This document shows positions 9,860 to 11,464 of a stretch of DNA of 29,734 nt, in pieces. The notes under the pieces are model-generated. The model did no database searches. It was not told the origin of the DNA and worked only from the letters and a program-made list of their open reading frames with translations. Location: positions 1 to 29,734 of the IMG/VR virus record IMGVR_UViG_3300035228_000632; one strand, 5' to 3'. The stretch's first letter is position 1, and each line of letters opens with the position of its first letter. A program made the position numbers and the translations under genes. Source of the stretch: a virus.

Positions 9860-10534
9860 CTATTTAGAGAGATAACCTTTTTCAACCAAGTATTTACGTG
9901 TCAATGGTGTTGGTTCGTAGTCAGTCCACATGGTTCCACGGGCACAAGACTCAAGTGCCTTAGCAGTCATACCTTCAGTTTTACCTGCCCAGTATGCTTC
10001 TTTCTCCCAGGGAATTGCTCCAGGTTGATCTCTGTATGTTGATTTTACAATTTCTTGATACAGTGGAGGAACAGAATCTTCAGGCAGAATGATAGCAATC
10101 AGAGAGTTATCGATAGTACCTGCCATGCAATCCTGTGCTGCATGCCATCCTTCATGACGCATAACACTCATCAACATTCCAGGTCGATTCATGTATACTT
10201 TATTCAAGAAGAAATTATTACTAACAGTATGATATACCCCACGGTGTCCCACAGGGAAATACTTTTGGTCTGCTAGAAAAACCTTAGCTCCGACTTTATT
10301 AAGTGATCCGATAAGAGAATTAAACTCAACAGCAACAATGTCGTAGTTAGTAGCAGGTATCTCAGAATTGATATCTGAGATGGACTTAACTTCATTGATA
10401 TCTTCTATACATTCTTGAAGCAACATACATCCCATAGAATGCATTGTAAAGTACTCACTATCTTTGAGGGGGGCGGAATGGACAGGTAGGGCAACCGCTG
10501 CCGCAACAACCGCCGCTGTAAATAATCTTTTCAT
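9860..10534 (-). CDS. Secreted HExxH metallopeptidase-like protein (copy 2)
   Basis: 224 aa with a signal peptide (cleavage after HSA, about residue 21). The zinc motif is HEGWH (127-131) in MRHEGWHAAQDCM. A Glu in WEKEA (E179) lies 52 residues after the first His and would be the third ligand of a gluzincin. Cys36, Cys42, Cys136 and Cys197 match positions in the paralog at 10808-11464, suggesting two disulfides and an oxidising periplasmic or extracellular location. Possible roles are envelope-protein or peptidoglycan-linked cleavage (inference). The ATG overlaps the upstream stop (ATGA). No specific peptidase family is assigned. Confidence 0.8.
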   Translation of the reverse strand: MKRLFTAAVVAAAVALPVHSAPLKDSEYFTMHSMGCMLLQECIEDINEVKSISDINSEIPATNYDIVAVEFNSLIGSLNKVGAKVFLADQKYFPVGHRGVYHTVSNNFFLNKVYMNRPGMLMSVMRHEGWHAAQDCMAGTIDNSLIAIILPEDSVPPLYQEIVKSTYRDQPGAIPWEKEAYWAGKTEGMTAKALESCARGTMWTDYEPTPLTRKYLVEKGYLSK

Positions 10535-10821
10535 TTGTAGTATGCCTCATAGTATTTGACAATTCCATTACTATTTACATGCCCTTGAGAAACCCAGTCG
10601 TGACAGCAATTTTGGATACTCTCCATACTACAGACTGGTTCACCATTTTCTTGAGTTAAACCACCATACTTATTGAGAAGAATACTGTAAACTTGTTGTC
10701 TCAGTTCCAGTCTTTCTTCAGAGTATCGCCAATCTCCAACCATACCTTCTGCCTTCAACTTGTTATAGTTATAACATCCATCAAATGTAGTTTGAATTTT
10801 TAGTGCTTTAGATTCCGTCAT
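10531..10821 (-). CDS. Cys-containing hypothetical between the two metallopeptidases
   Basis: 96 aa, no signal peptide and no membrane helix. The central helix-rich part (YSEERLELRQQVYSILLNKY) is followed by a Cys cluster, PVCSMESIQNCCHDW, and there is one Cys near the N-terminus. No family recognised. It overlaps both flanking metallopeptidase genes (14 bp and 4 bp), so the three are co-translated. A regulator, inhibitor or chaperone of the proteases is a guess from position only. Confidence 0.7.
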   Translation of the reverse strand: MTESKALKIQTTFDGCYNYNKLKAEGMVGDWRYSEERLELRQQVYSILLNKYGGLTQENGEPVCSMESIQNCCHDWVSQGHVNSNGIVKYYEAYYK

Positions 10822-11464
10822 GATAACTAACGTGTCCGTTCCAATAGAGATAACTCCAAGTTTTTTTTGGTGGGGGATATGTTTCCCAGATTGGAGTATC
10901 TGAGTTACATGCTTCTAATGCGTCAACAGTCATCCAAGGACTGGTCATTGCTAGGACTGCTTCTCGTTCAATCCTAACAGTATCAGGATCGAATCCATAT
11001 CGGTCAAAGGTATCTTGAACAACATCAGCAGGAATTACATCCCATGCAAGCATAGGCATAATATCTGAGTTGTTCATACCACCACCCATACAATCTTGAG
11101 CAGCATGCCATGCTTCATGACGCAATGCTTCGATGAACATTTCAGGTTCATCAGTATATCCCTTGTTCAGATATATCGTATTCGAGTCAGCATAATACAA
11201 TGCATGATAATCATCCACAAAATACTGTGGATTTGATGCATAAACCTTGACTCCCATCTGATTAAGATTAGTCAGGATAGTCCTAACCTCATCATCATTA
11301 TAATAATCAAGAATATTTACTGCGTCTACACCAACAGTGCATTTTTGCCTTCGCATACAATCCATTGCTTCATAAGTATAGAAGACAGTTTCTTCCTCTT
11401 GATGTGCAAGTGTAGGAAAGATTAGTGCAACTGAAGCAAGTAGACTGAATAAAAGTGTTTTCAT
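10808..11464 (-). CDS. Secreted HExxH metallopeptidase-like protein (copy 1)
   Basis: 218 aa with a signal peptide (MKTLLFSLLASVALIFPTLA). Zinc motif HEAWH (116-120) in LRHEAWHAAQDCM, and a candidate third ligand E168 in EREA, again 52 residues after the first His. Cys36, Cys42, Cys125 and Cys186 correspond to those of the second copy; overall similarity is clear but moderate, so the duplication is old. There is an AT-rich gap before the start and no obvious ribosome site. It is probably exported and disulfide-bonded. Substrate unknown. Confidence 0.8.
   Translation of the reverse strand: MKTLLFSLLASVALIFPTLAHQEEETVFYTYEAMDCMRRQKCTVGVDAVNILDYYNDDEVRTILTNLNQMGVKVYASNPQYFVDDYHALYYADSNTIYLNKGYTDEPEMFIEALRHEAWHAAQDCMGGGMNNSDIMPMLAWDVIPADVVQDTFDRYGFDPDTVRIEREAVLAMTSPWMTVDALEACNSDTPIWETYPPPKKTWSYLYWNGHVSYHDGI

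Follow-up and report, generated by a model that had tools for sequence, protein, structure and literature searches.

Two minus-strand genes of a viral sequence of 29,734 nt (IMG/VR record IMGVR_UViG_3300035228_000632, positions 1 to 29,734; hereafter the window) encode similar proteins, P1 and P3, each with an HExxH motif, and they lie on either side of a gene for a small protein, P2 (Table 1). This locus raises the question of whether P1 and P3 are exported proteases that form a system with P2, as had been predicted from the DNA alone, and what a virus would use them for. The explanation we favour, with a probability of about 0.5, is that both are exported proteases of the gluzincin type that cut proteins of the host envelope, in this virus for lysis.

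Table 1. Features of the locus and its operon in the window
Feature	Coordinates	Strand	Details
phrog_605 membrane protein	8847..9401	-	184 aa; phrog_605 E 1e-67; hydrophobic segments from about 13 and 144
DUF6450 protein, candidate holin-like	9405..9857	-	PF20048 E 1.5e-35; hydrophobic segments from about residues 37 and 76
P1, predicted exported gluzincin-like protein, phrog_591 / T4-GC 945 family	9860..10534	-	224 aa
ExEA, P1 residues 177-180, candidate third zinc ligand	9995..10006	-	E177, E179 and A180 invariant in both alignments
HExxH, P1 residues 127-131	10142..10156	-	H127, E128 and H131 invariant in both homolog alignments (76 homologs; 22 sequences)
P2, small helical protein, phrog_4136	10531..10821	-	96 aa; phrog_4136 E 3e-29
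P3, P1 paralog, rare subfamily	10808..11464	-	218 aa
ExEA, P3 residues 166-169	10958..10969	-	
HExxH, P3 residues 116-120	11105..11119	-	
phrog_4639 hypothetical protein	11486..11842	-	118 aa; phrog_4639 profile match
Hydrolase_2 (SleB-type) cell-wall hydrolase / endolysin	11839..12228	-	PF07486 E 3e-8; phrog_12490 endolysin E 2e-61
Intrinsic-terminator-like hairpin	12238..12256	-	just upstream of the endolysin gene

P1 and P3 align over 224 columns with 31% identity (122 bits, E 5e-37), against a top score of 34 bits among 200 shuffles. They are true paralogs, far beyond chance, as the original prediction had it. Both carry HExxH within the longer motif RHExWHAAQDC, from residue 127 in P1 and 116 in P3, and the four cysteines said to lie at matching places do so (residues 36, 42, 136 and 197 of P1; 36, 42, 125 and 186 of P3). 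A glutamate of the ExEA motif exactly 52 residues after the first histidine had also been put forward. It is present in both proteins (E179 and E168), but the spacing is not a constant of the family: the first glutamate of ExEA follows the first histidine by 48, 50 or 51 residues across the family, and the second by 50 in Syn9 gp219 and 45 in Syn5 gp14. The dN/dS values of P1 and P3 were 0.13-0.26 (0.21 and 0.26 for the two genes when compared with contig L004), and both genes are under purifying selection.

Both proteins match the phrog_591 profile of 226 positions over its whole length, P1 with E 7e-108 (profile 8-225) and P3 with E 1e-36 (profile 6-224). A search of phage records with P1 gave 366 matches, all in cyanophages and each at a single place, which supports the assignment to a phage; P3 also gave 366, again at a single place in each and all below 60% identity. 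Syn9 gp219 is a phrog_591 family member, and the records of Syn33 (Syn33_020) and Syn1 (Syn1_053) label the family gene as T4-like GC 945. These proteins resemble P1 and P3 in length, motif, cysteines and signal-like N-terminus, and are catalogued as hypothetical only. The family is undescribed, as had been suggested, with respect to function, although the gene itself has long been catalogued (T4-GC 945, phrog_591, Syn9 gp219). Two deposited names among the relatives, 'proteolytic enzyme' in S-SCSM1 and 'SprT-like domain-containing protein Spartan' in S-SCSM2R, indicate that earlier annotation by others had already pointed to a protease. The text of the S-SCSM1 paper (PMC9602691) does not mention a protease, and the HExxH ORFans from metagenomes listed in Lobb 2015 (PMC4508852) do not include the family by name.

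P3 differs from the phrog_591 isolate proteins: it is an additional copy, at 33% identity to P1, and belongs to a subfamily that did not turn up in isolate records and has 13 loci in IMG/VR. A P3-type gene stands beside a P1-type gene in four contigs examined (L003, L004, L005 and L013), with P1 first and then P3 in L013, and a contig of 239 kb has two family members 23 kb apart. Contig L084, whose P1 is 97% identical, has the same operon without P3, and P3 would thus be a fairly recent gain or loss. It is a rare, lineage-specific extra copy.

A cellular origin of the family was considered and rejected on two of the three genome matches. These two look like phage DNA, since L155 resembles phage P-TIM40 and genes of the same cassette are present in L153. 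L155 is a 188 kb contig filed as Nonlabens xiamenensis that is cyanophage P-TIM40-like at 1-10666 (98.8% identity across the 10.7 kb compared), and in view of this identity it is probably a contamination of that assembly. The family profiles also matched in the Synechococcus elongatus control genome, and phrog_591 in Methanocaldococcus as well; a plasmid search with them gave no matches. An identity as anti-phage defence was likewise discarded, with no match of note.

A fold search of predicted viral structures reached further cyanophage proteins at about 20% identity, including Syn5 gp14. These belong to phrog_16003, which has mutual matches with phrog_591 and occurs in T7-like, siphovirus-sized and other T4-like phages recorded on Synechococcus. 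They share with P1 and P3 the signal-like N-terminus, RHExxHxxQxC and ExEA, but are shorter (about 150-185 aa), lack the N-terminal C-x5-C region and have another genome position. Across 76 diverse homologs, RHExWHAAQDC, E-x-E-A and the four cysteines are invariant or nearly so. When 22 sequences were aligned, including those only 17-25% identical, the invariant residues were reduced to R126, H127, E128, H131, Q134, C136, E177, E179 and A180, a set of nine that has the appearance of a catalytic site.

The AlphaFold2 model of P1, built with 76 homologs (pLDDT 89.8, pTM 0.85), has HExxH inside a helix spanning residues 118-137 and both glutamates of ExEA (E177 and E179) in a helix spanning 171-184, and strands 84-88, 99-102 and 107-111 precede these two helices. 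As modelled, the succession of strands, HExxH helix and glutamate helix is zincin-like and corresponds to that of gluzincins. The predicted fold has the order of secondary structure expected of a zincin, but matches to zincins in the PDB were weak: the best E was 0.2, nothing fell below E 0.001, and query TM-scores were at most about 0.31. The top matches were mostly zincins, and anthrax lethal factor, M3 oligopeptidase and deuterolysin were among them. Sequence-profile searches found no relative with a solved structure. Taken together, the model and the residues that never vary speak for a zinc hydrolase, and we consider it likely that the P1/P3 family is an exported hydrolase of the zincin type.

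The statement that no known peptidase family could be named agrees with the curated databases, since no Pfam or NCBIfam family exceeded its curated threshold for P1 or P3. Several metallopeptidase models of Pfam matched family members below threshold (DUF6782, M76, Zn_peptidase_2, Mx1, M91 and SprT). DUF6782 scored 13 bits with P3, its cut-off being 27, and gave a best E of 0.012 among members, and SprT-like a best E of 0.11 in 2 members only, both below the Pfam threshold; no Pfam match to Peptidase_M78 was listed for any member. When we compared home-made profiles, a small M78 profile reached 74% (69 columns), eCIS_core 69% (39 columns) and SprT 24%, against 0.03% for the unrelated P2 profile used as negative control; these values lean to gluzincin families and away from the control, and are not decisive. 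Peptidase_M78, the ImmA/IrrE-like gluzincins, has strands followed by an HExxH helix as in the P1 model, and the E-x-E-A-N of the M78 members examined resembles the E-x-E-A of P1 and P3, whereas the present family is predicted to be exported, contains cysteines and has a longer stretch from HExxH to the glutamate. The eCIS_core domain (formerly DUF4157) has HExxHxxQ after a strand, as P1 does, but there is no Pfam match and the protein context differs. SprT-like or Spartan proteins have HExxH in common with P1 and P3, which differ in looking exported and in having a candidate glutamate ligand. P1 and P3 would represent a gluzincin-like family of a known kind, with a predicted activity, that no curated family covers.

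The signal peptides proposed for both paralogs were seen as hydrophobic, signal-like N-termini in P1 and P3 by a crude rule of hydropathy and an A-x-A site. By this rule, 125 of 131 distinct family members have an N-terminal hydrophobic segment with an A-x-A-like site. The divergent relatives likewise have signal-like N-termini, and residues 1-19 of P1 are of low confidence in the AlphaFold2 model. The family is likely exported, and the signal-like N-terminus together with the conserved cysteines suggests action outside the cytoplasm. A role in the virion was also examined and rejected; the virion proteome table of S-CREM2 (PMC10665884) has the neighbour gp17, not gp18.

The operon in the window runs from the endolysin gene through phrog_4639, P3, P2, P1 and DUF6450 to phrog_605, with overlaps or short gaps throughout. 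This order, with or without P3, is fixed in many contigs, the Hydrolase_2 endolysin included, and Bellamy has it with one extra gene. Of 151 loci, 111 have a same-strand DUF6450 gene downstream of P1, 92 have a phrog_605 gene downstream and 85 a phrog_4639 gene upstream. The DUF6450 protein matched no holin family, and to call it a holin candidate is our guess from its topology of two hydrophobic segments. The T7-like phage P-SSP7 has a relative of DUF6450 (L178, 2441-2752) that is annotated with two transmembrane regions and is followed by a possible signal-peptide protein; DUF6450 is a holin candidate common to T4-like and T7-like cyanophages. DUF6450 and phrog_605 also occur together in the Prochlorococcus phages P-SSM2 and P-SSM3, both without the protease-like gene, which is therefore not a required part of the cassette.

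Often in the same cluster is a gene for a small beta-barrel protein, Phage_OMP (PF24653), found at 12280-12645 with a terminator-like hairpin behind it. Upstream of it are a strong sigma-70-like site (12853-12825) and TATAAATA (12801-12794); the latter had 2 occurrences against 1.75 expected, and the late-promoter search was thus uninformative. At 13667-28035 the window has, on the minus strand, a long series of sugar-nucleotide and glycosyltransferase genes; among their products are three Glyco_transf_11 proteins, epimerases, a GHMP kinase and a protein of the UDP-glucose dehydrogenase type.

According to the explanation we favour, P1 and P3 would be zinc metalloproteases of the gluzincin type, with HExxH and a downstream glutamate in the E-x-E-A helix. 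They would be made in the infected cell and leave the cytoplasm by the Sec route of the host; outside it they would fold, with disulfides, and cut host envelope proteins. Produced together with the cell-wall hydrolase and the two small membrane proteins, they would weaken the envelope for lysis, and P2, next to them in the operon, would stay in the cytoplasm and have a role of its own. The data above establish homology, conservation, gene order and purifying selection, and from them we infer zinc binding, proteolysis, export and disulfides for both proteins. An action on envelope proteins seems to us slightly better than an even bet, and a use in lysis is put forward tentatively; the substrate and the lysis role are the weakest parts of the explanation. 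It is the operon with the cell-wall hydrolase and the two small membrane proteins that makes an aid to lysis the most likely use in this virus.

The gene is found away from lysis genes in Syn33, Syn9 and the T7-like phages. Since in other lineages it lies among auxiliary genes or near the RNA polymerase gene, lysis is not certain, and the exported metalloprotease may instead serve host takeover or superinfection exclusion by the early removal of receptors or other surface proteins. The T7-like phages Syn5, P60, S-TIP28 and S-CBP42 have the relative immediately ahead of the RNA polymerase gene or near it, where T7-type phages keep early genes; such a position is at odds with a late role in lysis. 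Among T4-like phages the gene shifts between auxiliary-gene hot spots. The tight operon with endolysin and membrane proteins in the window's lineage argues the other way, and we regard this early role as unlikely.

It could also be argued that export leads to the thylakoid lumen, not the periplasm, and that the proteins act on the photosynthetic apparatus. Syn9 gp219 (L168 18350-19000) lies directly behind psbA and psbD, the Syn33 gene lies between cpeT and gp5 with CP12 also nearby, and the Bellamy gene has plastocyanin and PTOX genes near it. The window itself has, at 238-2778, two genes with matches to the D1 family of photosystem II in PHROGs, one of them probably D2, besides genes for plastocyanin (7166-7489), which is a lumen protein, and ferredoxin (6855-7151). 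However, the hot spots hold many unrelated genes too, and the T7-like relatives are without such a photosynthesis-gene context; a lumenal role is therefore quite improbable in our view.

A further reading keeps the zincin-like fold for an enzyme directed at peptidoglycan, or for a non-catalytic binder, and dispenses with proteolysis of host proteins. The cell-wall hydrolase in the operon and the non-significant similarity to the zincin fold are in keeping with it. We consider it very unlikely. At 17-25% overall identity the catalytic glutamate and the residues presumed to bind zinc do not vary, which argues against a dead enzyme.

The small protein between the paralogs overlaps both genes as described, P3 by 14 nt and P1 by 4 nt. 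It had been called cysteine-rich, which does not hold for its relatives: P2 has four cysteines, of which only C72 reaches 90% among 39 relatives, and the family has five invariant residues and this one nearly invariant cysteine. The P2 model (AF2, pLDDT 79) is helical, without a fold match in the PDB, and hydropathy gave no signal-like segment. Whole-record searches found the P2 family without the protease-like gene in P-SSM2, P-SSM7 and P-TIM68 (the last with a partial marginal match), and the protease-like gene without P2 in Syn33, Syn9 and P-RSM1; in Syn1 the two are about 67 kb apart. The proposed paired protease system around P2 does not agree with this distribution, nor with the single copy of the gene in 366 phage records or the L084 operon that has no P3, and was rejected. 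That P2 might regulate or assist two dedicated proteases finds some favour in the overlaps, in a P2 family gene upstream of P1-type genes at 85 of 151 loci and in a P2-like gene two genes from a distant protease-like relative in S-N03, but it is already largely refuted by the distributions and the missing signal-like segment, and we give it hardly any credence. P2 is an operon neighbour and no obligate partner.

The protease-like gene is unevenly distributed over host groups. T4-like records found with gp6 comprised 372 named for Synechococcus, 61 for Cyanophage and 24 for Prochlorococcus, and those with the protease-like gene 301, 61 and 4, respectively, all counts being of redundant records; the Prochlorococcus-named records seen among the matches are Syn33 and Syn1, both isolated on Synechococcus. 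Record searches did not find the gene in P-SSM2, P-SSM3, P-SSM4, P-SSM7, P-HM1, P-RSM4 or the T7-like P-SSP7. Strict Synechococcus specificity was nevertheless rejected, as the gene occurs both in P-RSM1, whose isolation host was Prochlorococcus MIT9303, and in a contig that shares 98.8% identity with P-TIM40, a phage recorded on Prochlorococcus NATL2A. Because of these two exceptions and the redundant counts, the bias towards Synechococcus is statistical and not a rule. Sullivan 2010 (PMC3037559) reported 48 Synechococcus-enriched genes; its text does not name GC 945.

One may speculate, with considerable doubt, that this is a new gluzincin family spread across unrelated phages of marine picocyanobacteria (T4-like, T7-like and siphovirus-sized), exported into the host envelope to cleave a protein typical of marine Synechococcus; a single proteolytic step beyond the cytoplasm would then be something that phages of these hosts generally require. 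To our knowledge, exported proteases are rarely encoded by lytic phages. Several hundred sequenced marine cyanophages carry the gene, yet nearly all of its annotations read hypothetical. If its product is active, it would represent an extracytoplasmic step in the infection of an abundant ocean phototroph, one that could be tested in the model phages Syn9 (gp219) and Syn5 (gp14).
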